Positions 3,775 through 31,389 of a stretch of 37,012 nt of DNA are shown here, piece by piece (the first letter of the stretch is position 1; every line of letters starts with the position of its first letter). The notes under the pieces were generated by a model. It was not told where the DNA came from, did no database searches, and saw only the letters and a list, made by a program, of their open reading frames with translations. The DNA is from a virus, in IMG/VR virus record IMGVR_UViG_3300027749_002715, positions 1-37,012 of that record. The stretch is one strand, 5' to 3'. Made by a program: the position numbers and the translations under genes.

Positions 3775-4653
3775 ATGTCATTACGAATTAGACGCGGCAC
3801 AGATGCTCAAAGAGCAACAACACCTTTGGATCTGGGTGAACTTGTATTCACCACAGATACTAAACAGCTATACGTTGGTAACGGTATAGACAACGGCGGC
3901 GAACCTATTATTCGACTGGGTACTGGACTTGCATGGGCAGATGCACAATGTACTACGATTATTGCTACTGGTGCAGCCTTACAAGTTTCCGCAGACGCTA
4001 CTCCAAGTTTAGGTGGTAATTTAACTTTAAGTGGATATAATATTACAGGAACAGGTAACATTGATATTACCGGTAATATTTCTGCAAGCACTTACATACG
4101 ATCGCCAACGTATCAAGGACCACTACAAACAAGCGACATAGTACTACGAAGTAGCAGTGCTAGTCCTGTAAATGTTGTAACGGTTACAGACGGCGCCACT
4201 AATGTTCCATTTTTGACTTTAAAAGCAGCCCGAGGCACACTTGCTGTACCAGTTAATAATACCGTCGGCGACATTATCGGCGGCTTTCAAATTAAAGGTT
4301 ACGGTAATAATTTATTTAAATTTGCTGCCGCCGTAGTAGCCCAGTGGTCAGCTTCTGCTACTTTAACAAACGGTGTTCCGGGTGCAAATTTATTATTAGT
4401 TACAGGTAATAACAACAACGGACAGACAATTGCTAGTTTGAATGGTATAACCGCCGTGTTTAATGCTCCAATATTGTCTACATCTGTGTACTCAGTTGCC
4501 GGTACTGCATTACCTAGTGCATCGGTTGTAGGGAAAGGTGCAAGAGCGTTTGTATCCGATGCAACATCGCCAATACATGGCACGCCTTATGTAGGCAGCG
4601 GCTCAGACAATGTGCCAGTTTACTCAGACGGAACAAGTTGGTTTATTGGTTAA
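3775..4653 (+). CDS. Virion protein with Mtd_N-like N-terminus (tail fibre / receptor-binding type)
   Basis: Encodes 292 residues. The first 45 residues (SLRIRRGTDAQR, then GELVFTTDTKQLYVGNG) match the short domain found at the N-terminus of Mtd-like and many marine phage tail-fibre proteins. The rest is Ser/Thr/Gly/Asn-rich with beta repeats (LTLSGYNITGTGN, IDITGNISAS) and ends in a compact head-like segment (AFVSDATSP, PVYSDGTSWFIG). It probably forms a trimeric, surface-exposed fibre or decoration. SD GGAGA at 3764-3768 sets the start. It lies directly beside the modification island and is a candidate substrate, though nothing in the sequence proves this. Its end overlaps the stop of the opposite-strand gene. 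Confidence 0.85.
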   Translation: MSLRIRRGTDAQRATTPLDLGELVFTTDTKQLYVGNGIDNGGEPIIRLGTGLAWADAQCTTIIATGAALQVSADATPSLGGNLTLSGYNITGTGNIDITGNISASTYIRSPTYQGPLQTSDIVLRSSSASPVNVVTVTDGATNVPFLTLKAARGTLAVPVNNTVGDIIGGFQIKGYGNNLFKFAAAVVAQWSASATLTNGVPGANLLLVTGNNNNGQTIASLNGITAVFNAPILSTSVYSVAGTALPSASVVGKGARAFVSDATSPIHGTPYVGSGSDNVPVYSDGTSWFIG

Positions 4654-5219
4654 GACCAACGAGGATATTTCATAAGTTCTTTTAGAAATTTATCAGGAAA
4701 TAATTGCCACACAGTTTGAATTGTTCCTCTGTAATCAATTTCTTTAATACGTTTCATTTGGCCCAATTTTTCTAAAGCTGGGCCAAATGTACGATGTACT
4801 CTACGCTGTGTTCCTACACTACTTTCATTACTTGTAATGTATAAACTTGACCCAACAGGTGCCCAATCAATACAAACAGGAATTAAAAATTGTGCTGTTG
4901 GATTCTGATGTTCTGTAATAACACTTATAGTTCTTAAGCCCGCTCCGTAAGTACCCAAGATCATGTCTGTGAATACACATGTACGTACGGCAACACGGTA
5001 TGCATTATCTCCCATCTCAGGAAAACTGTGTGCTCCTACAGAACCTATAGCTTTATTATTGTAGTATAAAATCCACACACACCATTCTCGTTCTTTTGCT
5101 AAACTGTCTACTAGCATTTTTTGACTGGAATTGTTTACAAAACCTTTAGATTCAGCCGTGACATAGAATTCTGTTAAGTCCAAGTCAGGTGTCCACCTAA
5201 CTACTTTATACTGTTTCAT
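4650..5219 (-). CDS. GNAT-like acyltransferase-fold protein
   Basis: Encodes 189 residues. A VWILYYNNKAIGSVGAHSF segment in the first half resembles the strand-turn-strand centre of GNAT N-acetyltransferases, and a later MILGTYGAGLRTISV stretch could supply the acetyl-CoA loop, but the classical R/Q-x-x-G-x-G/A is not clean. Acetyl transfer is therefore a fold-level inference. It is the last gene of a three-gene reverse operon (6593 to 4650) with a methyltransferase and a kinase-like protein; the start overlaps the methyltransferase stop by 14 bases. It converges with the virion gene. Confidence 0.6.
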   Translation of the reverse strand: MKQYKVVRWTPDLDLTEFYVTAESKGFVNNSSQKMLVDSLAKEREWCVWILYYNNKAIGSVGAHSFPEMGDNAYRVAVRTCVFTDMILGTYGAGLRTISVITEHQNPTAQFLIPVCIDWAPVGSSLYITSNESSVGTQRRVHRTFGPALEKLGQMKRIKEIDYRGTIQTVWQLFPDKFLKELMKYPRWS

Positions 5220-5913
5220 TCCATTCCCCCCATGTAATAGGCAACGGTGTATGACTTAATTTAAATTTCATAACAAACTTTTTAAGTACTATATCTGTAC
5301 TACTAAGTCCAAATCCATATCTTCCCGGGTCTAGTACTTTTAATAATTCATAACAAGACATGTCTTCTACAAATCCTAATCGATTTAGTACCATTTTTAA
5401 GAAACCCATACTGTATAAAAAACTTAGATATCTATCTTCTTTTATCTGATTAGCCTCGTGGGGCATACTTGTAGGATATACTTCTGTATATGCATGATTA
5501 TATTCTAAGTTATACAATTTACTATTATAATCAGGATCATCCGAACTAATCATAAAAAATGGATAAGGGTTAGGACTTTCTATTATTAAATTATCCGTTA
5601 TCTTTGTTATTTGTTTTAATACGTCTGGAAGATTACTAAACGCAATTATTACATTATTGCAAAACACAACATCAAATTTTCTTTTACACACTTTTAAGAA
5701 ATTTTCTGCTGAAATACATTGCAAATGAGCATTTGAATATTTTTTTAAATTTTCATTTGGAATAATATTAATATCAATACCTAAATATTCTTTGGCACCG
5801 TGTATCATTAAATATTCGCCTAAATAGGCTTTATTACATCCTATATCTAAAAATGTAAGTCCTGATATGCTGTCAGGCGATATCCAACATGAAAATCTTT
5901 CAAATGTATTCAT
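5206..5913 (-). CDS. Class I SAM-dependent methyltransferase
   Basis: Encodes 235 residues. Motif I is LTFLDIGCNKAYLG (Asp23, Gly25), followed by an acidic strand end LGIDIN that would hold the SAM ribose, and a motif IV-like FDVVFCNNVI. This is a complete Rossmann methyltransferase core. The substrate is unknown; small-molecule or protein methylation fits the island. The start overlaps the stop of the kinase-like gene by four bases (ATGA). Confidence 0.78.
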   Translation of the reverse strand: MNTFERFSCWISPDSISGLTFLDIGCNKAYLGEYLMIHGAKEYLGIDINIIPNENLKKYSNAHLQCISAENFLKVCKRKFDVVFCNNVIIAFSNLPDVLKQITKITDNLIIESPNPYPFFMISSDDPDYNSKLYNLEYNHAYTEVYPTSMPHEANQIKEDRYLSFLYSMGFLKMVLNRLGFVEDMSCYELLKVLDPGRYGFGLSSTDIVLKKFVMKFKLSHTPLPITWGEWNETV

Positions 5914-6593
5914 AACAGCTTAACTTTCTCTATAAAATCAGCAGGATAATTGGTATTAAAACTAGCCCAGCATAGTTGTTCCATTACTTCAAACGTCTGT
6001 GGCTTGTCCCACTCTATCCCTAAACTAGCAATATGCTTTTTCATTTCTTGTTGACGAGTTGAATAAATGTGACTTTCGACATCGGAAATACTAAATTGAG
6101 GTTCACGTCTATTGTAGGTGAAAAAATAATTAATACTTTTAAGTTTACCATCAACTACAAAATAGCTACTTGGATGCATGGAATATTTGTATAACCCTAA
6201 TGACTTGTGGGCACGGATAATTTCTAGCATTTGATCTTGCCAATCTGGTAACACACTATCATAATTGGCCGTATCACAACTGGCTCTTTCCCAAAAATCA
6301 GGACCGTCAATTTCTAGATATAATTTACGTTCCTTTAAATCTATATTTTTAATAACTGGAACCAAATGCGGATATGCATTCCGCATCTGAGTTAGATAGT
6401 TTACTTCACGTAACCATTTTTCCTCCATCTTTACAGGATCAATAACTTGATTTTGATCTTTGTGATAAGTCTCGTCGTTATAATACCACTGAACAAATGT
6501 TTTTTTATCTTCTGAGATCAAGCTGGTATAAATTAGATTATTTCTGCATAATCCAATACCGGGAACATTATTATAATAGTATTCGTATTTCAT
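5910..6593 (-). CDS. Degenerate protein-kinase-fold protein
   Basis: Encodes 227 residues from the ATG at 6593; an in-frame start at 6635 would add 14 residues but lies upstream of the likely transcription start. Two segments resemble the small-molecule/protein kinase fold: a hinge-like LYLEIDG (residues 91-97) and a catalytic-loop-like stretch with His140-Pro, VVDGKL and INYF. The HRD Asp is absent and the DFG Asp position reads Asn155, so phosphotransfer is doubtful. It is paralogous in layout to the protein at 20351 (HPHCFFLKDG, FDFY). Possibly a binding or scaffold subunit. First gene of its operon. Confidence 0.6.
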   Translation of the reverse strand: MKYEYYYNNVPGIGLCRNNLIYTSLISEDKKTFVQWYYNDETYHKDQNQVIDPVKMEEKWLREVNYLTQMRNAYPHLVPVIKNIDLKERKLYLEIDGPDFWERASCDTANYDSVLPDWQDQMLEIIRAHKSLGLYKYSMHPSSYFVVDGKLKSINYFFTYNRREPQFSISDVESHIYSTRQQEMKKHIASLGIEWDKPQTFEVMEQLCWASFNTNYPADFIEKVKLL

Positions 6594-6604
6594 TTTGTAT
6601 ATGT

Positions 6605-6612
6605 AATTTATC
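6605..6612 (-). promoter_or_regulatory. Weak late-type motif (GATAAATT)
   Basis: Reading on the reverse strand, GATAAATT lies six bases upstream of a potential transcription start at about 6599, just before the ATG at 6593. It departs from TATAAATA at the first and last bases. It shares a 54-base divergent region with the forward motif at 6613-6620. Confidence 0.3.
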
Positions 6613-6620
6613 AATAAATA
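6613..6620 (+). promoter_or_regulatory. T4-type late promoter candidate (AATAAATA)
   Basis: AATAAATA matches the late consensus in seven of eight bases and predicts a start near 6626, giving a leader of about 20 bases to the ATG at 6647. The leader lacks an obvious Shine-Dalgarno. Confidence 0.45.
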
Positions 6621-6646
6621 TCTGCTATTATACACAAATCAGACTA

Positions 6647-8131
6647 ATGTTCAAATGCCTTTTATTCAATGTTGCTAGCGGAACCAATCATGTTGGCAAC
6701 GGGAGAAGCGTAGGCGTATATAGAATAGCACACTATTTAAGAGATCACAACTGGGATGCCGAGGTAATTGATTTTGTCAGTGCATGGTCATTAGATGAAT
6801 TAAAATTATTAGCAATATCACGTATAGACGCTAATACTAAATTTATAAGTTTTAGTCATATGTTCAGCGTTTGGTCTGATACATTAGAACAATTTGCATT
6901 TTGGTTAAAACAAACATACCCTGAGATTCCGTTGCTATCCGGATCGGGTATATCTCCACAATTTAAATCAAAGGTATTAGATTACTATATACAAGGGTTT
7001 GGCGAAAAGGCACTTGTTGAATTATTGAAATATCTTTTTAGCAACGGCACACGCCCTCGATTTAGTTTATCTAAAGCAAACAATAAACCGTTACTATCTG
7101 CTAACGATCAATACCCATCATTTCCAATGCCCAATTTAAATGTAATATATCAAGATAGAGATTACATACAATCTAACGAATGGTTAGGTATTGAGTTTGC
7201 TAGGGGATGTAAATTTGCTTGTGATTTTTGTAATTTTCCAGTACTAGGTGTTAAAGGTGATTACTCTAGAGATGCAGAAGATTTTCGTATGCAAGTGCAA
7301 GATGCTTATGATAGATTTGGTGTAACTAACTATCTTGTTTCAGATGAAACATTTAATGATCGCACAGAAAAAATTACTAAGTTTGCAGATGTAGTTGACA
7401 AATTAAATTTTTCTCCTTGGTTTACAGGATTCATACGTCCCGACTTAATTATAAGTCGGCTGCACGACAGAGAAGAATTATTACGCATGGGTTTTCTTGG
7501 CCATCACTACGGTGTTGAAAGTTTTAATCACAAAGCAGTTAAAAGTGTTGGCAAAGGAATGCATCCTGATAAAATTAAACAAGGGTTGATTGATGTTAAA
7601 GCCTACTTTGAAACACACGGCACTAATCGTTATAGAACACTACTAACATTTATACTAGGATTACCAGGAGAAACTGAACAAGATCTAGAAAGTACTACAG
7701 ACTGGTTGTTAAAAAATTGGCAGGGGCAGGCGTGGACTCCGTTTGTACTAGAAATACCTATAGGAGAACTTAACAGATTATCTAAGATGAGTTTAGATTA
7801 CAGCAAATACGGATACAAGGAATATACTGGCAAGTATACTGAATTAGAATATACGCAGGCTCGTGTATCCAATGAAATTTTAATTTGGGAAAACAAGGAT
7901 CTAAATTATTTTAAAGCATACGAGATTTTCTTTAAAATGATTGATGTACGTAACAATACGTCGAGTAACTTTACACTAGCACCTTGGGATTTAGCAATGA
8001 TTGGTTTGCCAGGTAATGTAACAGAGAGACTAGCTCTACATAATTCGTATCTTAAAAATAAAGAAGTAGATTTAATTAGAGAAAAATTTGTTAACAACTA
8101 TAAACAGCAAAAACTTAATCTAATTCAATGA
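6647..8131 (+). CDS. B12-binding-domain radical SAM protein, copy 1
   Basis: Encodes 494 residues from ATG 6647; an open frame reaches back to 6497 but upstream of this ATG it lies in the divergent promoter and opposite gene, and the two paralogues start at the equivalent residue. The N-terminal ~150 residues have the Rossmann pattern of cobalamin-binding domains (VYRIAHYLRDHNWDAEVIDF, then GFGEKALVELL) but lack the DxHxxG cobalt ligand. The radical SAM cluster site is CKFACDFC (Cys188, 192, 195), followed by SDETF and GxxYGVESF segments. A C-terminal extension follows. Such enzymes do radical methylations, cyclisations or C-C chemistry. Single-gene unit, converging on 8115. Confidence 0.88.
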   Translation: MFKCLLFNVASGTNHVGNGRSVGVYRIAHYLRDHNWDAEVIDFVSAWSLDELKLLAISRIDANTKFISFSHMFSVWSDTLEQFAFWLKQTYPEIPLLSGSGISPQFKSKVLDYYIQGFGEKALVELLKYLFSNGTRPRFSLSKANNKPLLSANDQYPSFPMPNLNVIYQDRDYIQSNEWLGIEFARGCKFACDFCNFPVLGVKGDYSRDAEDFRMQVQDAYDRFGVTNYLVSDETFNDRTEKITKFADVVDKLNFSPWFTGFIRPDLIISRLHDREELLRMGFLGHHYGVESFNHKAVKSVGKGMHPDKIKQGLIDVKAYFETHGTNRYRTLLTFILGLPGETEQDLESTTDWLLKNWQGQAWTPFVLEIPIGELNRLSKMSLDYSKYGYKEYTGKYTELEYTQARVSNEILIWENKDLNYFKAYEIFFKMIDVRNNTSSNFTLAPWDLAMIGLPGNVTERLALHNSYLKNKEVDLIREKFVNNYKQQKLNLIQ

Positions 8132-8900
8132 TAAGATCTTTAGAGCCATTCTCAACAAACCAATCGAACTTATCTCCAACAAATCCCATAATCAATAAAT
8201 TACAGCGTAAGCTAAACCCTAGATTTGCAGTGCCGTGCGGCATATTTTTCCAATCAAATGTTATTGCTTCACCTGCATTATAATTTTTCCAATACTGATC
8301 ACCAAAGTACCAAGTTTGGCCAAGATCATACGGAGTTAACGAAATAAATGTTTTTCGTAATCTCAAATGATCCTCAGTTGCCAACTGATCATATCTTTTA
8401 TGCAAATTGTGTTCTTTGAAATAAACCTCGTTTAAATCTAAATGATATGAACATACTTGGCCTATTCTTTGAAAGGTAACTCTAATAGCATGAACTTCTG
8501 TATACCCTAGTTTTTCTGCCATTTGATAAAACGGTTCATATGCTTTATGATTGCATTTAAACTCAGGAATTAATATTAACTCATCATTATAACGTCCTTC
8601 GTATATATCAGTCAGCCAATTTATAGATATTCTATTAGTGCCGGCAAGTTTATACATGTCTGCCTCTGCGGCTTTATAACCTCCCGACATAGCTTCCAAA
8701 GGAGTAGCTACCTCAATAAAGTTTTCATAACAATCTTCCGCTGCCTTTTCTATTCCAGCTGCCCAATCACCTTTAAAAGTACACAACGGATTATAGATAT
8801 CTGATTCTAAAACATCTGTTGGTTTAAAATGATAGGTCGAAATCTTTTTATGATCCTCCCACCAAGGATATTGCTGAAATACTGATAGATCGATTGACAT
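8115..8900 (-). CDS. 2OG-Fe(II) oxygenase-like protein (Asp/Asn beta-hydroxylase type)
   Basis: Encodes 261 residues. The double-stranded beta-helix carries a complete iron triad and a 2-oxoglutarate arginine: His153-x-Asp155 (YHLDLNE), His222 (MPHGTANLG) and Arg232. The pattern of the last three elements is the Asp/Asn beta-hydroxylase-like arrangement also seen in other island members. Expected reaction: 2-oxoglutarate- and O2-dependent hydroxylation of a peptide or small molecule. It is alone on the reverse strand, with a late-type motif and a short leader that begins at its GGAG ribosome site. Confidence 0.8.
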   Translation of the reverse strand: MSIDLSVFQQYPWWEDHKKISTYHFKPTDVLESDIYNPLCTFKGDWAAGIEKAAEDCYENFIEVATPLEAMSGGYKAAEADMYKLAGTNRISINWLTDIYEGRYNDELILIPEFKCNHKAYEPFYQMAEKLGYTEVHAIRVTFQRIGQVCSYHLDLNEVYFKEHNLHKRYDQLATEDHLRLRKTFISLTPYDLGQTWYFGDQYWKNYNAGEAITFDWKNMPHGTANLGFSLRCNLLIMGFVGDKFDWFVENGSKDLIIELD

Positions 8901-8925: not shown

Positions 8926-8955
8926 GAACAAAAAATTCCCCATGACGAATTTGAC

Positions 8956-8963
8956 TATAAATA
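8956..8963 (+). promoter_or_regulatory. T4-type late promoter candidate, perfect consensus (TATAAATA)
   Basis: TATAAATA matches the T4 late consensus in full. With its last base at -6, transcription starts at 8969, exactly the A of an in-frame ATG. It heads the longest operon of the island (to 17985). Confidence 0.6.
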
Positions 8964-8968
8964 TTGCC

Positions 8969-9562
8969 ATGGAAACCATTAATATTTTTGATTATAACGT
9001 ATGTCGCTTTAAGTGCCATGATGAAACCTTGTACAGAACAGAAAAATTAATAGCCGGCATAGACAACTTATTCAATAACTCTGATTTAGACGACGACCTT
9101 AATAATCAAATGAAACACGGTATTAGTACATTTGGGATTGAAAAATATAAATTATTAGAAATAGATGGCATCGACTTATTAATAAAATGGATAACATCAA
9201 AGATACTCGAATCTCGCAGTTTTTTTGGTTACAAAGATGCAATTGATGTAGACATATCACAAGCATTTACAAATAAAATGTGGCCAGGAGCTACGGGCAA
9301 AGTACACAATCATACACCAACTCGGCACGGTGTTATCGTATTCTATTTTCAACAGCCTGAAAATGGAAGTGATTTGGTACTAGTTAAAGATAGCTCTATA
9401 GGAGTAGACTTGGAAAATATTGCCGAGAAAGATAAACACTATTTAAATGTTAGACAAGGTGATTTAATAATTCACGAAACCTCGGCATGGCACGGAGTAT
9501 CTTTACATAAAGGAACTTCTCCAAGAATCGTCTTTATCTTAGAATATAAGTACGTAGTATGA
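8969..9562 (+). CDS. 2OG-Fe(II) oxygenase-like protein (2OG-FeII_Oxy_5-like)
   Basis: Encodes 197 residues from ATG 8969. An upstream in-frame ATG at 8942 would add nine residues, but it precedes a perfect late promoter lying inside that extension. The C-terminal half reads GKVHNHTPTRHGVIVFYF, then a GDLIIH strand, WHGVSLH and SPRIVF: candidate ligands His113/His115, His175 and 2OG-binding Arg186, spaced as in the phage-rich 2OG-FeII_Oxy_5 family. The acidic member of a HxD pair is not obvious, so the exact triad is uncertain. First gene of the forward operon; overlaps the next start by four bases. Confidence 0.7.
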   Translation: METINIFDYNVCRFKCHDETLYRTEKLIAGIDNLFNNSDLDDDLNNQMKHGISTFGIEKYKLLEIDGIDLLIKWITSKILESRSFFGYKDAIDVDISQAFTNKMWPGATGKVHNHTPTRHGVIVFYFQQPENGSDLVLVKDSSIGVDLENIAEKDKHYLNVRQGDLIIHETSAWHGVSLHKGTSPRIVFILEYKYVV

Positions 9563-11049
9563 AAGGTATAATTTTCGGCGTTGAAGATACATCTGCACCT
9601 AAGCGGCAAGGTGGCGCACATAGGATTGCTACATTTTTAAGAGAACATGACTGGGATATAGAAGTTATTGATTTTACCTTATGGTGGTCGCTTGACGAAT
9701 TAAAAGCATTGGCCAAGTCAAGATTTGATAAGGATACAAAATGGATAGGGGTCAGTTCTTTATTTACAGATACCAAGTTAGGCACATTCGGAGAGTTTTT
9801 AGTTTGGGTTAAAATTACTTACCCTGACATCAAAACAATTTTTGGTAGCCAGGTTAAACTGCCTAAGCAGTATAGTTTTATTGATTATAATATAAATGGT
9901 TTTGGAGAACACGCATTGTTAGTGCTGTTGAAATATCTGTTCAGTAACGGCGATTCACCTAAATTTAGTATGTTTTTAAATTCTGGAAGAAACATACCAG
10001 CTAATGAATACTACCCATCGTATCCTATGAAAAGTCTAATGATAAAATATGAAGATCGAGACTTTATTCAATCGTACGAGTGGCTCTCTGTTGAGTTTGC
10101 AAGGGGCTGCAAATTTAGTTGTGACTTTTGTAATTTTCCAGTTATTGGAGTTAAGGGAGATTATACTAGAGATGCAGATGATTTTCGACTGCACATGATG
10201 GATGCATATGACAGATTTGGTGTACAATATTACGCAGTGTCTGACGAAACATTTAACGACAGAACAGCAAAGATTACTAAGTTTGCAGATGTAGTTGAAA
10301 CATTACCGTTTGCTCCTTTTTTTACTGGATTTATTAGGGCTGATTTATTGATTAGTAGAAAAAATGAAAAAGAAGAATTATTACGCATGGGTTTTCTTGG
10401 ACAATTTTACGGTGTAGAAACTTTTAACCATGAAACTGGAAAATCTATTGGTAAAGGAATGCATCCTGATAAAATTAAGCAAGGACTAATTGATATAAAG
10501 AATTATTTTAAATCACATGGTAATAATTATTATAGAGGATACATAAGTTTAATTGCAGGGTTACCGCACGAAACAATGGAAAGTTTGGATGTAACAAAGC
10601 AATGGTTATTAGATAACTGGAAAGGTGAATCATTCAGCGTGTTCGCATTAGAAATACCAATATCAGAATATGACTACCCATCAAGTATTTCTATGAATTA
10701 TAAAAAATACGGTTATAAAGATGCCAGTGGTGATGCTGATGTGCAAAATTTAAAAGATGATTATAATCGTTATAATATAATCACTGACGTATTACTATGG
10801 AAGAACGAACACATGTCTGTTAGAGATGCAGCAAGGATAGCTAAGGATATTGAATGGATACGTGACAATCCTGCTTCTTCTTATAATGCCAAAGTTCCTA
10901 ATTTTAGTTTGGTGGATCTTGGACTTCCTGATAACTTAGAAGATAGACTATCAGTGGATTTTCAGTACATATTTTCGTCGAATACAATTAGAACAAATAC
11001 GTTAAACACAAGAATAAAAGACTACATTCAAAAAAAGTTGGGACTGTAA
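9559..11049 (+). CDS. B12-binding-domain radical SAM protein, copy 2
   Basis: Encodes 496 residues. It has the same two-part architecture as the proteins at 6647 and 11050: an N-terminal Rossmann-like B12-type domain without the DxHxxG histidine motif (QGGAHRIATFLREHDWD, later GFGEHALLVLL), then a radical SAM domain with CKFSCDFC (Cys184, 188, 191). The middle region (NSGRNIPANEYYPSYPMK, YEDRDFI) is almost identical to copy 3 and close at DNA level, so copies 2 and 3 are a recent tandem duplication. The ATG overlaps the previous stop (ATGA) and its stop abuts the next ATG. Confidence 0.88.
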   Translation: MKGIIFGVEDTSAPKRQGGAHRIATFLREHDWDIEVIDFTLWWSLDELKALAKSRFDKDTKWIGVSSLFTDTKLGTFGEFLVWVKITYPDIKTIFGSQVKLPKQYSFIDYNINGFGEHALLVLLKYLFSNGDSPKFSMFLNSGRNIPANEYYPSYPMKSLMIKYEDRDFIQSYEWLSVEFARGCKFSCDFCNFPVIGVKGDYTRDADDFRLHMMDAYDRFGVQYYAVSDETFNDRTAKITKFADVVETLPFAPFFTGFIRADLLISRKNEKEELLRMGFLGQFYGVETFNHETGKSIGKGMHPDKIKQGLIDIKNYFKSHGNNYYRGYISLIAGLPHETMESLDVTKQWLLDNWKGESFSVFALEIPISEYDYPSSISMNYKKYGYKDASGDADVQNLKDDYNRYNIITDVLLWKNEHMSVRDAARIAKDIEWIRDNPASSYNAKVPNFSLVDLGLPDNLEDRLSVDFQYIFSSNTIRTNTLNTRIKDYIQKKLGL

Positions 11050-23111: not shown

Positions 23112-23119
23112 TATTTATG
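23112..23119 (-). promoter_or_regulatory. T4-type late promoter candidate (CATAAATA)
   Basis: On the reverse strand CATAAATA matches the late consensus in seven of eight bases. Its geometry puts transcription within a base or two of the ATG at 23107. It heads the six-gene reverse operon to 17969. Confidence 0.5.
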
Positions 23120-23133
23120 TGCTACATTTACTA

Positions 23134-23141
23134 GGTAAATA
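23134..23141 (+). promoter_or_regulatory. T4-type late promoter candidate (GGTAAATA)
   Basis: GGTAAATA keeps the TAAATA core and predicts a transcription start within a base or two of the ATG at 23146. It mirrors the reverse-strand motif in the same inverted repeat. Confidence 0.45.
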
Positions 23142-23145
23142 TTTC

Positions 23146-24000
23146 ATGGATAAACTTACTGTAGCTTCTTCTTACTCAGCCAACTATTTAGAAATAGATC
23201 GGCCAAGCCCTTTAGTAGACAATAACATAGAACAGTTGATTCAAGATGTATTGTCTGGTAAGTTAGATCGAGATATTACTGATAAAGTATATAGTAATTT
23301 TAAAAGTGAAATGGTTAACTGGATAGTCAGTAGTAAGCTAAACACTTTGGATGGAATTAGTAGTTTTTCTAGGATAGACATTATCAATGGGTGTACCCAA
23401 TTTATTGATAATTTATATATGCAAGGGCCAGTGCAAACATTGCAGGGCGATTACAAGTATCATCATAGATTAGGAAATTGGGGTAGAAAAGCAGGAGAAC
23501 TATCAGCTAATATTCCGTTAATTATTGCTATGCCGTTTCCTAGTATTGGAGCTGTACATACTCATATGATTGATATCTTAGAAGAGTGTTTGGATAAAAA
23601 TATACCCATACACATTGACGGTGCATGGATAACATGTTGTAGAGATATTACATTTGATTTTAGTCATCCTGCTATTAGTAGTGTTGGAATAAGTTTAAGC
23701 AAAGGATTAGGGTTAGGTTGGAACAGAATTGGCTTACGTTGGACTAGACAAGTTAACCCGGATAGTGTTACAATAATGAATGATTTTCGTATGAACAATC
23801 GTGCATTAGTTATGATTGGATTGCACTTTATCCGCAATCTACCAGTAGACTATTTGTGGAACAAACATAGTTTTAATTATTATAAAGTGTGTAACGATTT
23901 TGAATTAACTTCAACCAACAGTATATACCTGGCATTGCGAAAGGGACAGCCTGTTGGTGTTAGTCCATTAATAAGGTATTTGGAAAATGCTAGTAGATGA
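23146..24000 (+). CDS. Minimal PLP-dependent aminotransferase-fold protein
   Basis: Encodes 284 residues from ATG 23146; a GTG at 23119 would add nine residues but lies upstream of the likely transcription start. The fold-type I signature is present: PFPSIGAVH, HIDGAW with Asp158 facing the pyridine nitrogen, and SLSKGLG with Lys186 as the PLP Schiff base. Typical aminotransferases exceed 380 residues, so this is a trimmed enzyme, missing much of the C-terminal small domain. It could transaminate, decarboxylate or eliminate; which is not visible. The end overlaps the PP-loop gene by 14 bases. Confidence 0.8.
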   Translation: MDKLTVASSYSANYLEIDRPSPLVDNNIEQLIQDVLSGKLDRDITDKVYSNFKSEMVNWIVSSKLNTLDGISSFSRIDIINGCTQFIDNLYMQGPVQTLQGDYKYHHRLGNWGRKAGELSANIPLIIAMPFPSIGAVHTHMIDILEECLDKNIPIHIDGAWITCCRDITFDFSHPAISSVGISLSKGLGLGWNRIGLRWTRQVNPDSVTIMNDFRMNNRALVMIGLHFIRNLPVDYLWNKHSFNYYKVCNDFELTSTNSIYLALRKGQPVGVSPLIRYLENASR

Positions 24001-24706
24001 TTTAGAAATTCCATTTGATATTACTTGGCAAAGTATTGCAATAAGTGTAAGTGGCGGTGCCGACTCTGCATTATTAGCATACTTAATATGTTATAAGGCA
24101 ACACCGGGTACAATTATAAATATTATAAGTCATACTCGAATGTGGAAAACACGCCCATGGCAAAGCGACAATAGTTTAACTGTTTACAATTACTTAGCGA
24201 ATGAATTCCCTGCACTTGCATTTAAACGACATACTAATTTTATTGCTCCTGAATTAGAGTATGGGGCCGCTGGCCCTACTGTATACGACGAGTATGGGAA
24301 ATTTGTTAGCGGTGATAATATTCAACAACGTGCATTTGCAGAATACATATGTTTCAATGAAGATATAGATGCTTACTATAATGCCGTTACAAGAAACCCT
24401 AAGGGAATTAATTTAGGCGGGATGAAAGAACGAGATATTGACCCTAGCGAATATAATAAACATTTGTCAGAAATGATTCACATGGGACGCCGTGTATTTC
24501 ATCCGTTTCGCTTTATTGACAAGGCGTGGATCATCAAACAATATTATCGATTGAACCTAACATCATTATTATCCATAACCCGTAGTTGCGAAGGGGAATT
24601 TGAAAATATAAACTATACAAATTACATTCACGGGCAATTTGTTCCTACTTGCGGCAAATGTTTTTGGTGTAAAGAAAGAGAGTGGGCCATTGAAGAATCT
24701 AAGTAA
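23987..24706 (+). CDS. QueC-like PP-loop ATPase, copy 2
   Basis: Encodes 239 residues. The PP-loop is canonical, SGGADS (residues 22-27), unlike copy 1 at 19632. The C-terminus repeats the zinc cysteine set TRSCEG and CGKCFWCKEREWA (Cys222, 225, 228). It probably activates a carboxylate by adenylation for amide or nitrile formation; the substrate is unknown. Its link with a PLP enzyme in the same operon suggests amino-acid or peptide chemistry, which is inference. Confidence 0.8.
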   Translation: MLVDDLEIPFDITWQSIAISVSGGADSALLAYLICYKATPGTIINIISHTRMWKTRPWQSDNSLTVYNYLANEFPALAFKRHTNFIAPELEYGAAGPTVYDEYGKFVSGDNIQQRAFAEYICFNEDIDAYYNAVTRNPKGINLGGMKERDIDPSEYNKHLSEMIHMGRRVFHPFRFIDKAWIIKQYYRLNLTSLLSITRSCEGEFENINYTNYIHGQFVPTCGKCFWCKEREWAIEESK

Positions 24707-25940
24707 AACATTTTGTATGCATCCTTTTACAGGATTGGCTACTAGAGAAGACGGTGCCATTTGTGCTTGCTGCCGTAGCCATCCTGTTGGATTCATTGAT
24801 AAAGAATCGTTAGAAAATATTTGGAACAACGATACAATGCAACGTATTCGTCGACAAGTATTAAACAGTGAACGTCCGGCGGAATGTGAACCTTGTTTTA
24901 GCTTAGAAGATCAGGGCGTTGAAAGTTTACGTATGCGACACATTGCCGGTAAGATTCCAGAAGCAAGAGTTAACCTGTATCCTAACACACCGTTATTAGA
25001 AGTTATGCCGTTTGAGATTCCTACTATGGAACTTAAACTAAACAATTTATGTAACTTAAAGTGCCGTATGTGTCATCCAATGGATAGTACAAGTTGGAAT
25101 GACTGGAGTAAAGTCAAAGACTTTTACAAAGCAGAAGGCAACATTATGTATGCTATTGTAGAAGAACATAATTTAGAACGTAAACCATTTCTAGATAAAT
25201 TTCAGGATAGTAAAGAATGGTGGACTAGTTTAGAAAAACTGTTGCCCTACTTTCGTCGTGTAGAGTTTGCTGGCGGCGAGCCTTTAATGGATCCGCAACA
25301 TTATCGCATACTAGATATGCTTGCTCTGTACGGACATCAAATAGAAATTAAGTATGCTACTAATTTGACTATGTTGGGTAAAGGTAATCGCACAGTTTGG
25401 GAGTACTGGCCTAAGTTTAAATCAGTAGCTGTGAATGTAAGTATAGATGGCATTGGTCCAAGTTACGAATACATACGTGGCAATGCAAGCTGGGATGAGT
25501 TAATAAACAACATTAAACAAATACAAGCAATACCTAACATTAGTCGCATAGTGGGTGCTGTTACTGTGCAAGTTAGTAATGCATTAGTATTAGATAAAAT
25601 AATTGAATATTTTTTGAACGATCTAGGCATTATATTTCACACACATCGCGTAGAATATCCTAAGCTATTATCAGCACAAGTATTGCCTCGACCGTTGCAA
25701 ATGTTAGCTATTGAAAGATTGATTAATATACAAGAAAGAATTAGAGATTTCAAACTAGTTAAACAGCATCCTCGGTTACTAGATTACACACTAGGACAGA
25801 TACAAGATAATATCAATTATCTAATGGCTCGAGATCAAAGCGATAAATGGAAAGAATGTATAGAATTTAATCGTAAATTAGATGCCACTCGTGCCCAAAG
25901 TTTTTTTGATGTTACTCCGGAGTTTTCTAGTTATGAATAA
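24690..25940 (+). CDS. Radical SAM protein with N-terminal twitch domain, copy 2
   Basis: Encodes 416 residues from a TTG at 24690. The frame opens earlier (24639), but that part lies within the PP-loop gene, and the 24690 start keeps conserved Cys9, which also exists in copy 1; the later ATG at 24717 would lose it. N-terminal cysteines 25, 27, 28, 66 and 69 precede the catalytic LCNLKCRMC (Cys121, 125, 128), followed by FAGGEPL and VSIDGIG. Same plan as 21680. The start codon is uncertain, the family is not. Confidence 0.83.
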   Translation: MKNLSKTFCMHPFTGLATREDGAICACCRSHPVGFIDKESLENIWNNDTMQRIRRQVLNSERPAECEPCFSLEDQGVESLRMRHIAGKIPEARVNLYPNTPLLEVMPFEIPTMELKLNNLCNLKCRMCHPMDSTSWNDWSKVKDFYKAEGNIMYAIVEEHNLERKPFLDKFQDSKEWWTSLEKLLPYFRRVEFAGGEPLMDPQHYRILDMLALYGHQIEIKYATNLTMLGKGNRTVWEYWPKFKSVAVNVSIDGIGPSYEYIRGNASWDELINNIKQIQAIPNISRIVGAVTVQVSNALVLDKIIEYFLNDLGIIFHTHRVEYPKLLSAQVLPRPLQMLAIERLINIQERIRDFKLVKQHPRLLDYTLGQIQDNINYLMARDQSDKWKECIEFNRKLDATRAQSFFDVTPEFSSYE

Positions 25941-26868
25941 TCCTATAAAAGAAATATTTTATAATTCGGACGGATTTAATACAGCTGAAATTATAGTAGA
26001 AGCAAAACAAGGAAGATTGTCTTTATTTTATCAGCTAAATGATAATCCTGTACAGCACACATGGCAACAACTACATAAAGATTCTACTAAATTTACTATG
26101 GGTATTACACACGGCAAGAGTTTGGAAGAGTTGCTTACAGAACTAAACAGTTTACTCATAACAACAAATAGACCTACATTATCATTACCTGTATCACAAG
26201 ATCAATTAAACAAATTGCATAACAGTTTTGTAGAACGTGTTAAAAACGAATCGTCTGCCGACGAATTGCAAATTAATTTGCTAATACACGCAATAGAATC
26301 TAAGAACAATTTTTTAACCGAATACGATTCTAGCACAAGATTTTATAAAAACCCTAACAATATTAGAATTCCAATTAAAGAAGAATATAAACTTTGGCTA
26401 ATGAATGACAACAAATGGGGACACTTGTTACTGGGGTTTGGTACATTAGGAAAATCTTGGAATGAGATTGCCAAAACTGATGATAATTTAGATGACTTAA
26501 ATCTTCAAACTACTATTAGTTCAGAAACAATTATGATGTTTAATGCAGATCATCCTTGTTTAAAAACTCCCGAGAAACGTTTATACAAATGGGCAAATAA
26601 TTCTAAACATTTTGTTCCTCTAAATGATTTAAATCAATTATCTTTAGGATTATATTTCCTAGGTGAAATCATTATAACCAATACCTTTTTAGATTTTCAC
26701 CCAAACGCTAGCGACTGGTACGTACCTAACCATATGTGTAAGCTATCTTGGAATCGGGATGTATTAGGGCATAATACACTAGTCAAACAAATTAAATTTT
26801 TTAACAGCGATATGTATTACGATTCTTTAATCAAACATGCTAACTTAAATTCTATATGCATAATGTAA
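25933..26868 (+). CDS. Protein of unknown function in the modification island
   Basis: Encodes 311 residues from ATG 25933, which overlaps the preceding stop by eight bases; the frame extends upstream only inside the previous gene. I do not recognise the family. It is Asn/Leu-rich and looks soluble, with a central FLTEYDSS region and a His/Trp-rich end (FHPNASDW, NHMCKLSWNRD). No signal peptide, membrane segment or clear catalytic motif is seen. It lies between two radical SAM genes, so it may be a peptide-recognition subunit or another modifying enzyme. Confidence 0.7.
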   Translation: MNNPIKEIFYNSDGFNTAEIIVEAKQGRLSLFYQLNDNPVQHTWQQLHKDSTKFTMGITHGKSLEELLTELNSLLITTNRPTLSLPVSQDQLNKLHNSFVERVKNESSADELQINLLIHAIESKNNFLTEYDSSTRFYKNPNNIRIPIKEEYKLWLMNDNKWGHLLLGFGTLGKSWNEIAKTDDNLDDLNLQTTISSETIMMFNADHPCLKTPEKRLYKWANNSKHFVPLNDLNQLSLGLYFLGEIIITNTFLDFHPNASDWYVPNHMCKLSWNRDVLGHNTLVKQIKFFNSDMYYDSLIKHANLNSICIM

Positions 26869-27761
26869 CAAGTCGATGGCCACATCAAAATAGTATTAAG
26901 ATAGAATGGAACATAGGCAAGCGATGTAACTATGATTGCAGTTATTGCCCTGCTAGTATACACGACAGCACTAGCAAACATACAGATATCGAAGTACTTA
27001 AAGCAACCGTGGACAAACTAATGACATTGGGCAAACCTATACGTCTTAGTTTTACAGGAGGAGAGCCATGTGTGCATCCTAAGTTCTTAGAGTTAGTAAA
27101 ATACTGTAAACATGTTGGGATTAGTTGGATTAGTGTGACTACCAACGGCACATTACCTTATGAATTTTATTCAGCGTTAGAAGCAGATCAAATTGTCTTT
27201 AGTATACATTTAGAATTTGATTGGAAACGAGTTTTCAATACAGTAGAAAGTATTGTAGATTTAACAAACAAAAAAGTTATTGCACAGATTATGGCACATC
27301 ATGATCATATGGATGCTGTATTTCAGTTGCGGTCCAAATGTTTATTGGCTACGATTCCGAGTACTGTTAGAAGAATACGTTGGACAGAAGGCGATCACGA
27401 TTTGTTTGATGATATGAGATATAATCTAAATGACTTAGAATGGATTAAAGAACAAGAATCTACAGTTCAAGGTAATTGTGTTATAGACAACACAAAAATT
27501 ATGCATGCCAATGATATTATAAAATTACACCTAAACAAATACAAAGATTGGGCGTGCAATGCAGGTATAGAAAGCCTAATGATTAATTGGGATGGCGATG
27601 TGCATAGGGCAACTTGCCGAGTTGGCGGCAGCTTGGGTAATATATATCAAGGCACATGGATAGTGCCGTCGAGATCTGTTATATGCGACAGAAACTTTTG
27701 CACATGTGCAGCAGATATTCCAATATCTAAACACGTAGTATTGGAATCAATTTCTGATTAG
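26856..27761 (+). CDS. Radical SAM protein, SPASM-like, short type B copy 1
   Basis: Encodes 301 residues. The cluster site is KRCNYDCSYC (Cys24, 28, 31), then FTGGEPCVHP. A C-terminal region (DWACNAGIESLMINWDGDVHRATC, split here as WACNAGIE and ATC) plus CDRNFCTCA supplies cysteines for auxiliary clusters as in SPASM proteins. It shares this C-terminal plan with 27727 and 30415. The end converges with 27727 and overlaps it by 35 bases; the start overlaps the unknown gene by 13 bases. Confidence 0.87.
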   Translation: MHNVTSRWPHQNSIKIEWNIGKRCNYDCSYCPASIHDSTSKHTDIEVLKATVDKLMTLGKPIRLSFTGGEPCVHPKFLELVKYCKHVGISWISVTTNGTLPYEFYSALEADQIVFSIHLEFDWKRVFNTVESIVDLTNKKVIAQIMAHHDHMDAVFQLRSKCLLATIPSTVRRIRWTEGDHDLFDDMRYNLNDLEWIKEQESTVQGNCVIDNTKIMHANDIIKLHLNKYKDWACNAGIESLMINWDGDVHRATCRVGGSLGNIYQGTWIVPSRSVICDRNFCTCAADIPISKHVVLESISD

Positions 27762-28731
27762 ATTGCTTTTCTTTACGGCAATTAATTTCCGGCTGGCACG
27801 TGCATTCCATTTGGTTACATGTAGTTGGTATTAATGTTGGTTGGAATTTTGTTGGGAATTCTATATCAAATAGATTATACTTAAAACTTAAATTGTAAAG
27901 ATTTACACCACATGCACCGGATATTTCGCCGCTTTTATTAATATATAGAGTATCAATTCCAACATTACACTTCCATCCGTAAAACTTGTTAAGTCCGTTA
28001 ACAGATATCCAAGAAAGAGAGTCTATTTTTTTCTTGCTTCCGTTTTCAAAATAGACAGTTGGTTTTTTATGATTTAATTTTTTATTCTTGAGGTAATAGA
28101 AAATGTTTGGTAGTTTTTTAAGATTTTTTAGCAGATATTTTTTTTGATCTTCGGTATACTGTATTGTATGATGATAAACTTCTATAGACGTTACGCACCA
28201 CCCCTTGCTGGCTTTTTTCAAAGTTTCAACTAATGCTACACATTTATCCCAGGCAAACGGATCCATTAGTACCATAGCAGTTGTCCAAACATTCTTTTTA
28301 TATAACGCATTGGCAACGCTAATGTAGTGATCTATATCTACTTGTTCGTGATGACAACTTAACATTACTTCGTCAAAATTTTGTCCGTACTCTTCCCACC
28401 ACCTAATAGTTCTGCTACCATTGGATGATATTGTTATTAGACAATCGTAGTTCTCTTTAAAGTATTTTACAAATATTTCAAATTTACTCCACATAGTTGG
28501 CTCACCGCCAATTATATGAATTTGAAATTTTGTTTTATTAAGAGTTGTCTTATAATAATCAAGCAAATGCGACAAATTCTTGCAAACTAAATCTACATCA
28601 GGCCACTTGTGGGTTCCTTCATTACTTCCAGGAAAACAATACCAACATTTGTAATTACAAAGGTTACTGAGAAATAGTTCTATTCTAAGTAAATTTTCTG
28701 GTTTATTAGATTCTATCTTAACAAGCGTCAT
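27727..28731 (-). CDS. Radical SAM protein, SPASM-like, short type B copy 2
   Basis: Encodes 334 residues. The cluster site is NLCNYKCWYC (Cys25, 29, 32), followed by IIGGEPTMW and a C-terminal WKCNVGIDTLYINKSGEI with a distal CNQMECTC group. It is related to 26856 and 30415. A GAGG ribosome site lies before the ATG at 28731, and a 24-base gap separates it from the upstream gene. It is the last of four genes in the reverse operon from 31389. Confidence 0.87.
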   Translation of the reverse strand: MTLVKIESNKPENLLRIELFLSNLCNYKCWYCFPGSNEGTHKWPDVDLVCKNLSHLLDYYKTTLNKTKFQIHIIGGEPTMWSKFEIFVKYFKENYDCLITISSNGSRTIRWWEEYGQNFDEVMLSCHHEQVDIDHYISVANALYKKNVWTTAMVLMDPFAWDKCVALVETLKKASKGWCVTSIEVYHHTIQYTEDQKKYLLKNLKKLPNIFYYLKNKKLNHKKPTVYFENGSKKKIDSLSWISVNGLNKFYGWKCNVGIDTLYINKSGEISGACGVNLYNLSFKYNLFDIEFPTKFQPTLIPTTCNQMECTCQPEINCRKEKQSNQKLIPILRV

Positions 28732-28755
28732 ACCGCAGTTCCTCTTAATAAAATT

Positions 28756-29829
28756 TTACAATACATCTCTATTTGTTTGTTGATCTCTAGGCTGGGCAAA
28801 AAATACGGATTTAGATCTGCCGCAAGATCTGGCACATGTAATTAACTTATCGTCAGTCCAGTATCGGTCCCAACAAGTCTGCCAAACATCACTGTTAATT
28901 ATATCTTTAATCGAAACTTCTACTGCATTGATATTTCCTAAGGTATTCCTTAAATCATCATATTGAACTTTCATTTGGTTTCTAACTACAGAGGCAGCAT
29001 CATTACTAATATAATTATATGGCGTACTTGCTAGCCAACAACACGGAAATACATTTTTATAAGCATCAATGTAAATCTCTTTGCTAGATTTTGCAAGGCA
29101 ATCAATCTCCATACTATCAACTATATCTTTGTAATTTTCTACATCGGATTTAGTAATAAAAGTCATCTTGTTTTCCGTTGCTGGTTCTAAGTAATATACA
29201 GTGCGCCCTTGACGATCGACTACAGGATGTTTTGAATCTAACATAAATCTAGAACTATTTTTAACTGTAAATGTTTTAAATCCTAATTTTTGGGCTAATG
29301 CCCTAGCATCTTCGACTTGATGTTCGTTGTGTTTAAATTTAATAAACACCCATTCTGCTATAGCACCTTCCTCAATTACAGCCCTTGCATTTTCTAAAAT
29401 AGTATTAAAATTTGTTCCCACACGATAAATGTGGTGAGTGTCTTCTAGCCCGTCGAGAGCAAATATAATATTATGTTGTTTAGGTAACGCTTTTGCCAAA
29501 CGTTTCCACCATTCAGTATTTCTAGCACTTCCGTTACTATGCACACGGATATTAAGATGCGGAGCACATTTGGTAGCATACTCACACATTTCAATGAGAT
29601 CGTTATTTAAAATAGGATCACCAAAATTTCCACAAAAGTAAAACCCATCTAACTGATCAAGGACTTCTTGACTCATGACTGTTTGAAAATCAGTTAATGA
29701 CCAGCTATTATTTTTTATTAAGGGATTATCCAGGCCACTGTTGATATTCCTACTACACATAGGACAGCTGGCTTGACAATTATTCGTAATTTCTAAATGT
29801 ATTTGTTTTAGCTTGTTAAATTCAAACAT
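28756..29829 (-). CDS. Radical SAM protein, SPASM-like, short type A copy 2
   Basis: Encodes 357 residues from ATG 29829, which overlaps the upstream stop by eight bases; a TTG two codons earlier is less likely because the paralogue at 17969 starts at the equivalent Met. Cys18, 22 and 25 (NCQASCPMC), FCGNFGDP, FALDGLEDTHH and EIYIDAYKNVFPCC match the 17969 protein along the whole length. C-terminal CARSCG provides further cysteines. Probable peptide-modifying enzyme by family, substrate unknown. Confidence 0.87.
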   Translation of the reverse strand: MFEFNKLKQIHLEITNNCQASCPMCSRNINSGLDNPLIKNNSWSLTDFQTVMSQEVLDQLDGFYFCGNFGDPILNNDLIEMCEYATKCAPHLNIRVHSNGSARNTEWWKRLAKALPKQHNIIFALDGLEDTHHIYRVGTNFNTILENARAVIEEGAIAEWVFIKFKHNEHQVEDARALAQKLGFKTFTVKNSSRFMLDSKHPVVDRQGRTVYYLEPATENKMTFITKSDVENYKDIVDSMEIDCLAKSSKEIYIDAYKNVFPCCWLASTPYNYISNDAASVVRNQMKVQYDDLRNTLGNINAVEVSIKDIINSDVWQTCWDRYWTDDKLITCARSCGRSKSVFFAQPRDQQTNRDVL

Positions 29830-30424
29830 AACCAATCACCATGAATCTTTTATACAACGGCAGGCTTAGTTCTCCAGCCCATCCTATCTTAGACAATTTG
29901 CATTGTGTTTTGAATTCTTCTAAGTTGTTTGCAATACGAATATGCTCAGGTATATCATAATTGTTACTTTGTAACACAAATAAACTATTATGTGGCATTC
30001 CACTTAACCACACATTGTATTGCTCTTGTGTAATATGCTCGCAACTTGTATTAATTACAACATCAGCATCACTACGGGTATTGCACATATCTGCTGTAAT
30101 TGCTTTAAAACGTCCTTCAATGTCTTCTTTCTTATTCATCATCGTGGCAATAAGTTCACAGGTAGGATCGATGTCAATACTACGGATATGTTTAACTGCA
30201 ATATAACTTTGAAACAACATGCTGGCTAATGTGCCGACCCAGCCACCATGTATATCTATACTAACTGGATTATCTTTAATAGAGCAAAAGTTTGTTAATG
30301 ATTCTATTAACCACTCTTTACTTTTTAGTTGGCCGCTCCAGAACGCATCCATGGTCCGTATAGGATCAGGGCTTTGTCTAATGGCTTGCATCCAATAGTG
30401 TAAATGTTCGGTATCTATTTGCAT
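29822..30424 (-). CDS. Class I methyltransferase-fold protein
   Basis: Encodes 200 residues. Motif I is VSIDIHGGWVGTLASML (residues 54-70) and the acidic strand end is RSIDIDPTCE, both as in Rossmann methyltransferases, with INTSCEHI at the motif IV position. The glycine-rich loop is unusual and it may bind SAM without methylating. It lies between two radical SAM genes and overlaps both, in the operon from 31389. Confidence 0.65.
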   Translation of the reverse strand: MQIDTEHLHYWMQAIRQSPDPIRTMDAFWSGQLKSKEWLIESLTNFCSIKDNPVSIDIHGGWVGTLASMLFQSYIAVKHIRSIDIDPTCELIATMMNKKEDIEGRFKAITADMCNTRSDADVVINTSCEHITQEQYNVWLSGMPHNSLFVLQSNNYDIPEHIRIANNLEEFKTQCKLSKIGWAGELSLPLYKRFMVIGYV

Positions 30425-31389
30425 TTTGGTATCTTAGAATCGGCACTACTTACACAACTTGGTGTGGAACAAATCTTAGGCTCTGTAAATAAAGTAAACT
30501 TTTCTAAATTTCCTAATGATTTATCGTGGCAACTATAACTTCGTTTAACTTCGTCGTTTCTAATTATTATGCTTTGATATCCACTATTACAATTCCAATC
30601 TTTAAATTGGTTGAATCCAAATGCATTAAAACGCTCAGCTTGATCGAACAAATATTCTGTATTATTCATATCATATAATGCTATCTGATGTGTATCTTCT
30701 CCATTAGACTGCTGAGGAAAACCTGTTTGCATTATATTAATCATTTCATCAGTATAGCCATCTACCAATCTACTGGCGGTTGGGTCGCTTTGTGGTTTAA
30801 GAGTTACATTAATACCCCGGGTTGCGAATCGTTTAAGGCGAGCATATAAGTCGTAAAACTTTTCAGGCACCATAACTTGATTAATAGTTACATGCACTCC
30901 ATCACTTATTAGTTGTAAAATTTTATCTCCGAATTCTTGTTCCTTGGCAAACTCGTCGTGGAAGCTGGCTGTGATACTTCTGCGTTGTAACGGACTTGTG
31001 TTACTGGCCCATGCCTTCCACCATCCAAGACCCGGGCTCAAGTTAGTAGTCATATGAATACTTTGGTAAGTAGTTTGCATATCATCAGCTAAATGTTTTA
31101 TCAATTCTAACAAGTACTTGTAAGCGGTAGGCTCGCCTCCGCTAAATGACCAATGGAACTGATCAAATCCATTATTCATTGCTTGTCGTTTGATCTCATC
31201 AACAGTACGGATATATACTTTAAGTGTTCGATAATCTGATATATCTGATCTAGCATATGGCCAACAATAACTACACTTGTAATTACAAAATCTGCCCAAA
31301 ATCCAACTAGTGGAAAATAATGGATTGATTAGCATAGTACGTTGCCCAAAGCGGACAATTTTTTCAAATGGAATGGTGGAATGGCTCAT
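30415..31389 (-). CDS. Radical SAM protein, SPASM-like, short type B copy 3
   Basis: Encodes 324 residues. The cluster site is RFCNYKCSYC (Cys35, 39, 42), then FSGGEPTAY, a C-terminal DWNCNSGYQSIII and further cysteines CHDKSLGN and CSTPSC. It belongs with 26856 and 27727. It is the first gene of the rightmost island operon; the ATG lies one base after the predicted start of transcription from a reverse-strand late-type motif, with no Shine-Dalgarno. Confidence 0.87.
   Translation of the reverse strand: MSHSTIPFEKIVRFGQRTMLINPLFSTSWILGRFCNYKCSYCWPYARSDISDYRTLKVYIRTVDEIKRQAMNNGFDQFHWSFSGGEPTAYKYLLELIKHLADDMQTTYQSIHMTTNLSPGLGWWKAWASNTSPLQRRSITASFHDEFAKEQEFGDKILQLISDGVHVTINQVMVPEKFYDLYARLKRFATRGINVTLKPQSDPTASRLVDGYTDEMINIMQTGFPQQSNGEDTHQIALYDMNNTEYLFDQAERFNAFGFNQFKDWNCNSGYQSIIIRNDEVKRSYSCHDKSLGNLEKFTLFTEPKICSTPSCVSSADSKIPKCK

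Follow-up and report, generated by a model that had tools for sequence, protein, structure and literature searches.

The virus fragment IMGVR_UViG_3300027749_002715 of IMG/VR (37,012 bases, one strand; 'the window' below) carries a dense island of enzyme genes that, judged by sequence comparison, is a real and widely conserved system of freshwater T4-type phages: a swappable unit of about 30 enzyme genes, rich in radical S-adenosylmethionine (rSAM) enzymes. Its 31 tightly packed open reading frames (ORFs) lie between a tail-fibre-like gene (3775–4653) and a conserved flank gene (31555–32091). The sequences speak for the enzymes themselves, for the conservation of their motifs, for inheritance as a block, for a site that is filled, empty or alternatively occupied, and for linkage to a fibre gene. 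The enzymes, of C–H-functionalizing and transfer types, equip the island for demanding chemistry in several steps, and what they make most likely acts at the phage–host interface.

The island recurs, its order largely conserved, in approximately 70 non-redundant IMG/VR loci. To see whether it behaves as a unit, IMG/VR was searched with single families, the neighbourhoods were inspected, and non-redundant loci of at least 15 kb were counted. Of the loci found through the SPASM-type rSAM pair alone, 27 of 28 have three or more further island rSAM genes and 25 of 28 a kinase-fold gene; for loci found through the twitch-domain pair, the corresponding figures are 52 of 54 and 49 of 54. Only the B12-binding-type rSAM is often solitary, standing alone in 11 of 31 loci, and by this measure it is an accessory of the block. 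The block recurs as a unit, and on these comparisons it is not a chance pile-up of genes. Of 14 large carriers, eight encode the T4-type capsid protein Gp23, and these include phages of 186–364 kb.

The island occupies a particular place. When loci were retrieved by the left and right flank genes, an island with three or more rSAMs proved to lie directly upstream in 25 of 38 non-redundant right-flank loci; of the remainder, most have no island or a different one. Empty versions of the site occur in loci L381, L392, L399 and L499. The island is, from these loci, a discrete insertion at a fixed site that in relatives is empty or differently filled. It is flanked by Ro60-like, polynucleotide-kinase-like and phosphoesterase genes, along with genes of no known kind, and in a tree of the flank phosphoesterase the island states are intermixed; many forks in this tree are poorly supported, but the pattern is consistent with island turnover. 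Empty, alternative and rSAM-bearing states, with a fibre at the left edge, are what characterize the host-recognition clusters of T4-type aquatic phages, namely hypervariable islands with tail fibres. Those clusters lie between VrlC and gp14 in the structural region, whereas neither VrlC nor gp14 was matched among the flanking proteins scanned here, so this site probably represents another locus of that type. In Pfam tallies the alternative islands yield fatty-acid desaturases, 2-oxoglutarate (2OG) oxygenases, GNATs, TauD, AMP-binding proteins, ketoacyl synthase and solute-binding proteins, and PP-loop proteins with an 'SGGADS' motif were seen in their sequences. Several (L454, L467, L469, L479, L481, L525, L386 and L411) are rich in PP-loop ATPases, desaturase-like proteins, GNATs and 2OG oxygenases, and a few contain TctC/DctP/TctA transport proteins.

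A fibre gene is linked to the island. Among left-flank loci, an Mtd-type fibre gene adjoins 13 of 13 rSAM-type islands, 7 of 17 other islands, and 1 of 12 empty sites (Fisher P = 2.7e-6 against empty sites, 0.001 against other islands); another empty site that has a fibre, L497, falls just outside the score filter of this table. Arrays of tRNA genes, considered as a confounder, occur with rSAM, other and empty sites alike and so do not account for the link. The linkage supports, at the level of gene neighbourhoods, a role for the island that is tied to adsorption. The initial annotation had proposed asking whether the gene set recurs as a block next to tail genes; these counts, with those from the rSAM pairs, show that it does. 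The genes are as follows, with coordinates, strand, and the evidence for each.

3775–4653 (+): Mtd-type tail-fibre-like protein, left edge of island; N-terminal RIRRGT.AQR...GELVFTTDTKQLYVGNG motif by inspection, no PHROG match
4650–5219 (−): GNATq, weakly assigned as a putative GNAT-like acyltransferase, conserved as the block's first gene; no Pfam/PHROG/NCBIfam match, 29 invariant columns in 23 sequences
5206–5913 (−): MT1, class I methyltransferase; PF13489, 3e-7
5910–6635 (−): KIN1, protein-kinase fold, apparent pseudokinase, true start likely near 6593; PDB kinase matches and fold of its relative KIN2
6647–8131 (+): rB12a, rSAM, paralogue of rB12b/c with B12-binding-type N-terminus; PF04055 2.6e-13, CX3CX2C
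8115–8900 (−): OXa, 2OG-type oxygenase (HLD...H); HHalign to OXc 95%
8942–9562 (+): OXb, 2OG-Fe(II) oxygenase; phrog_81, 4e-14
9559–11049 (+): rB12b, rSAM with B12-binding-like N-terminus; PF04055 1e-8, PF02310 0.05 (below cut-off)
11050–12504 (+): rB12c, B12-binding plus rSAM; PF02310 3e-9, PF04055 6e-9
12504–13559 (+): rHMPTM, rSAM with HMPTM-type zinc ribbon; PF23545 3e-12, PF04055 7e-10
13549–14352 (+): AspHa, 2OG-type oxygenase; H177/D179/H233/R246 invariant
14352–15035 (+): AspHb, AspHa paralogue lacking HxD motif, possibly inactive
15028–15633 (+): SDRq, SDR-like (weak assignment); no Pfam match, 10 homologues in loci
15614–16390 (+): AspHc, AspHa paralogue; triad present
16387–16896 (+): OXc, small 2OG-type oxygenase; profile–profile comparison
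16880–17467 (+): OXd, double-stranded-beta-helix-like; no clear triad
17464–17985 (+): OXe, small 2OG-type oxygenase; H102/D104/H154/R164 invariant
17969–19057 (−): rSPa, rSAM; PF04055 2e-8
19057–19656 (−): OXf, 2OG-type oxygenase; H124/D126/H181 invariant
19632–20354 (−): PPa, QueC-like PP-loop ATPase; PF06508 2.8e-8
20351–21019 (−): KIN2, protein-kinase fold, apparent pseudokinase; AlphaFold pLDDT (predicted local distance difference test) 95.7, Foldseek matches are kinases
21012–21683 (−): OXg, Asp/Asn-hydroxylase-like 2OG oxygenase; PF05118 1.9e-4, just under cut-off
21680–23107 (−): rTWa, twitch-domain rSAM (NF033640); 398.7 bits against a cut-off of 170
23119–24000 (+): PLP (pyridoxal phosphate)-dependent class-I-aminotransferase-like enzyme, likely start 23146; SLSK motif, K186 invariant
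23987–24706 (+): PPb, QueC-like PP-loop ATPase; PP-loop and Cys motif conserved, HHalign to PPa 99.8%
24690–25940 (+): rTWb, twitch-domain rSAM (NF033640); 321.4 bits against a cut-off of 170
25933–26868 (+): OXh, conserved protein, no assigned family; 6 homologues, no library match
26856–27761 (+): rS1, rSAM; PF04055 1e-12
27727–28731 (−): rS2, rSAM; PF04055 4e-10
28756–29835 (−): rSPb, rSAM/SPASM-like; PF04055 1.4e-6, over cut-off in genome search
29822–30424 (−): MT2, protein of methyltransferase fold, NTSCEH motif; pLDDT 94, class I methyltransferases in Foldseek
30415–31389 (−): rS3, rSAM; PF04055 1e-13, 50–59% identity to Bdellovibrionota chromosomal proteins

In the common order, GNATq, KIN1, rHMPTM, AspHa, OXc/e, OXf, KIN2, OXg, PLP, PPb, rTWb and rS1 are followed, on the other strand, by rS2, rTWa, rSPb, MT2 and rS3, with cassettes exchanged between the conserved core genes. 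The accessory genes of rSAM-type islands are mainly further 2OG oxygenases, SDRs (short-chain dehydrogenases/reductases), sugar epimerases and GDSL hydrolases. One frequent accessory protein (L017:15948–16577; a cluster of 99 proteins in 72 loci) begins with GCSYTFGHG and looks GDSL/SGNH-like by inspection; the member scanned had no Pfam match.

A Pfam search of the whole record finds PF04055 in exactly 11 ORFs, all 11 above the curated cut-off and all with a CX3CX2C motif, at the same positions as the eleven rSAM sites counted in the initial annotation. They comprise three B12-binding-type paralogues (51–63% mutually identical, only 11050–12504 passing the B12-binding cut-off), one protein with the HMPTM-type zinc ribbon, the SPASM-type pair (rSPa and rSPb, 42% identical), the twitch-domain pair, and three smaller enzymes. 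The twitch pair scores as NF033640 (>170 bits), whereas the six other rSAMs scanned fall below; by score rTWa and rTWb are members of that family, but here they are usually paired, and within a larger block. The ten 'beta-helix' 2OG-type proteins of the initial annotation were real but misnamed: they correspond to ten ORFs (OXa–OXg and AspHa–AspHc) whose fold is the double-stranded beta-helix, and in 8 of the 10 a candidate metal-binding motif is retained, consisting of HxD (in OXb, H-N-H) and a distal histidine. The motif was not found in AspHb (14352–15035) or OXd (16880–17467), which are possibly inactive partners of active oxygenases. Library matches among the ten are limited to 8942–9562 (phrog_81) and 21012–21683 (PF05118, just under cut-off). 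Profile–profile comparison joins six of them to one another (OXa, OXb, OXc, OXe, OXf and OXg), OXb only weakly, at a probability of 50%.

Other enzymes named at the outset held up as well: two PP-loop ATPases, which keep the S(G/C)GADS and QueC-type Cys motifs; a PLP enzyme, with no Pfam match, whose Lys186 is invariant in 22 relatives; and methyltransferases, one assigned by Pfam (MT1) and one by predicted fold (MT2). Fold searches match MT2 to many class I methyltransferases and to nicotianamine synthase, and do not fix its reaction. The GNAT-like and SDR-like genes are present, too, but GNATq and SDRq have no library match and their assignments are weak. Not flagged at the time were KIN1 and KIN2 (5910–6635 and 20351–21019), which form one family with a predicted protein-kinase-like fold (pLDDT 95.7). 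In alignment with kinases, the position of the catalytic HRD aspartate reads Ala/Ser, and for this reason they appear to be pseudokinases. Across relatives, catalytic motifs are invariant or nearly so. PDB profile searches with MT2, PLP, AspHa, GNATq, OXf and a protein described below ('YDEPNAE') gave no usable match, and when island proteins were compared by tblastn with 50,697 phage records, only partial matches at 22–33% turned up, or none.

The SPASM/twitch-type rSAMs recall the clusters that mature ribosomally synthesized and post-translationally modified peptides (RiPPs). Unlike those, the island has no precursor gene and no rSAM that passes a RiPP-maturase model: 8 of the 11 were scanned with the equivalog models and all scored far below the cut-offs. 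Neighbouring genes abut or overlap, and since gaps within the island are ≤41 bp there is no room for a separate precursor-peptide gene; the initial annotation had found none either. Nor, in this comparison with RiPP clusters, was a protease or a transporter recognized in the window. The late-type promoters of the initial annotation are not supported: TATAAATA has 2 matches against 6.7 expected, none upstream of a gene, and T4 late promoters fall below chance, leaving late expression of the island unsupported.

Similar modules occur in other phages. One is that of Pelagibacter phage Mosig (MT647606), another T4-type phage with a plastic cluster that includes tail fibres (PMC7029224). Homologues of the PLP enzyme, MT2 and two rSAMs, one SPASM-type and one rS2-like, adjoin its tail-fibre genes, together with Asp-hydroxylase and acetyltransferase genes; the Mosig/pelagimyophage cluster differs in having fewer rSAMs, and nitroreductases, a DegT aminotransferase and a carbamoyltransferase. 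Host-recognition clusters of pelagimyophages gain rSAM cassettes; the published fonsimyophages, their freshwater relatives, are without rSAM genes (PMC7029224). Campylobacter phages CP220 and CPt10 encode 11–12 rSAM proteins per genome, in an interchangeable module that at one locus is replaced by a divergent version (Timms et al. 2010, PMC2853527). In CP220 the rSAM genes lie downstream of baseplate lysozyme/PAAR genes and several match the rSPa/b profile, but the module is one of five rSAMs with amidinotransferase and nucleotide-sugar-transferase-like genes, only ~24% identical to the island; the other island families (2OG, QueC-like, KIN, MT2 and PLP) found no match in the CP220 region examined. 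In the published description of the giant Aeromonas phage 332-Vera, five tail-fibre genes share a structural cluster with eight rSAM genes; this phage belongs to the Chimallinviridae and is not T4-type (PMC12390700).

Bacteria carry relatives on their chromosomes. In a few Bdellovibrionota the chromosome carries a core made up of rTWa and rS3, usually also rSPb, and in some cases PLP, GNATq or MT2, one example being on a 1.62-Mb contig; rS3 matches occur in 13 of 129 Bdellovibrionota genomes, six of them at 50–59% identity to the phage protein. These core loci (L271, L256, L293 and L359–L366) lie near glycosyltransferase and HTTM-like genes, and MT2 homologues in Rhizobiales, too, lie near glycosyltransferases. 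A further family, 'YDEPNAE' (SYDEPNAE and DGDN motifs; e.g. L271:8880–9824, L121:2393–3277), was present in 4 of 4 bacterial clusters examined and in 16 phage loci. It has no Pfam, PHROG or usable PDB match; its DxD motif alone suggests that it may be a glycosyltransferase-like enzyme.

What might so many enzymes be doing beside a tail fibre? We propose, tentatively and at somewhat short of an even chance, that they build or install decorations on the co-inherited fibre, and that adsorption is retuned when the fibre and its enzymes are exchanged together. The island would be exchanged horizontally among T4-type freshwater phages and inserted at the fixed site together with the Mtd-type fibre gene. 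Its core set—SPASM/twitch-type rSAMs and further small ones, 2OG oxygenases, the PLP enzyme of aminotransferase-like type, a carboxylate-adenylating ligase resembling QueC, and methyl- and probable acyltransferases—would change the unactivated carbons of one molecule successively, while the two kinase-fold proteins that lack the catalytic Asp perhaps hold the substrate as scaffolds. We infer the shared pathway on one scaffold, the scaffolding role of the pseudokinases, and the function at adsorption. That the fibre itself is scaffold or substrate we infer only weakly, and hold to be somewhere between doubtful and tentative. An exchangeable chemical code for adsorption, in which a fibre and its matched rSAM/oxygenase set rewrite the surface chemistry of the fibre while the fibre gene stays unchanged, seems rather doubtful. 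The idea in the initial annotation of peptide or virion-protein modification gains from the recurrent block and the fibre link, but finds no precursor, no RiPP-maturase score above cut-off among the rSAMs scanned and, by eye, no shared core-like motif in the fibre C-termini.

Several observations weigh against fibre decoration. No substrate was recognized, and no core-like motif shared by fibre C-termini was seen by eye. The fibre table is a small sample of related, phylogenetically non-independent loci, many truncated, with fibres called by motif, and co-location can reflect a single plastic region hosting unrelated genes. Near the Bdellovibrionota chromosomal cores no phage fibre was recognized, and enzymes of amino transfer and carboxylate adenylation are met more often in small-molecule pathways. 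The main rival, which we consider a minority possibility, is modification of the host envelope (lipopolysaccharide, capsule or another glycan) during infection, to block superinfection for example, with fibre and island merely sharing a host-recognition locus. The setting of the Bdellovibrionota and rhizobial relatives near glycosyltransferases, and phage-island accessory genes that include NAD epimerases, UDP-glucose dehydrogenase, carbamoyltransferase and GDSL hydrolases, keep a glycan or other surface target live, and surface alteration with avoidance of co-infection is what was suggested for pelagimyophages (PMC7029224). Yet Pfam finds no glycosyltransferase in the window, and the 25 most frequent Pfam families in the tallies of accessory genes and of alternative islands, which head longer lists, include none either.

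The mix of tailoring enzymes, the AMP-binding, ketoacyl-synthase, FabA and tripartite-transporter proteins of alternative islands, and the chromosomal version in bacteria would all suit a diffusible specialized metabolite or cofactor-like compound, directed against competing microbes or phages, or redirecting host metabolism. This we rank after the envelope, as improbable: it leaves the fibre linkage unexplained, and no nonribosomal-peptide or polyketide synthase scaffold gene, exporter or self-protection gene was recognized in the window. Hypermodification of phage DNA bases or tRNA by a 7-deazaguanine-like or thymidine-type pathway is most unlikely. Phage base hypermodification does use rSAM and PLP enzymes in known cases, and the island encodes two proteins resembling QueC, while rS1 and rS2 score weakly as QueE-like; but these are all the window offers of a QueD/QueE/FolE and transglycosylase set, the island genes include no QueD, FolE, DpdA, base hydroxymethylase or DNA glycosyltransferase, and relatives with the same flanks do without the island. 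To a plastic region that passively gathers auxiliary genes with no common pathway we give hardly any credence, for although accessory genes vary and are exchanged, and the B12-rSAM occurs alone, core order and motifs are conserved and near-obligate co-occurrence already strains such a reading.

Modules rich in rSAMs have been termed highly unusual in phages since 2010, and left without explanation. The freshwater version proves to be an insertable unit, conserved and syntenic, whose core is defined and which is statistically linked to a tail-fibre gene; homologues exist on bacterial chromosomes and in a SAR11 phage isolate. An oddity thereby becomes a testable question: what do eleven radical enzymes make, and is it on the fibre? 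Were fibre decoration true, it would be a virus-encoded, multi-enzyme system of post-translational decoration for adsorption. The comparison also brings forward families that sequence searches of Pfam, PHROG and solved structures match poorly or not at all: AspHa, MT2, the KIN pseudokinases and the 'YDEPNAE' DxD protein.

The right edge of the island has a feature of its own. The 165-bp gap there contains, as read from the sequence, a sigma-70-consensus promoter (TTGACA 31389–31394, 17 bp, TATAAT 31412–31417) and, at 31424–31541 (~118 nt), a tRNA-like RNA with acceptor and T arms, an encoded CCA, and a variable hairpin in place of the anticodon arm. Among 30 distinct relatives, 99.0% of cells are paired and 12 pairs have changed on both sides; covariation is 0.40, against 0.13 when shuffled and at most 0.08 when slid. 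No Rfam family reaches threshold (best, tRNA-Sec, 17.8 against a gathering cut-off of 47 bits), and the match to known phage tRNAs is limited to the 3′ part. Whether the site holds the island, a different island or nothing, the RNA closely precedes gene 31555, and from this distribution it belongs to the phage lineage, not to the island. In relatives L368 and L386, it lies within a tRNA array.

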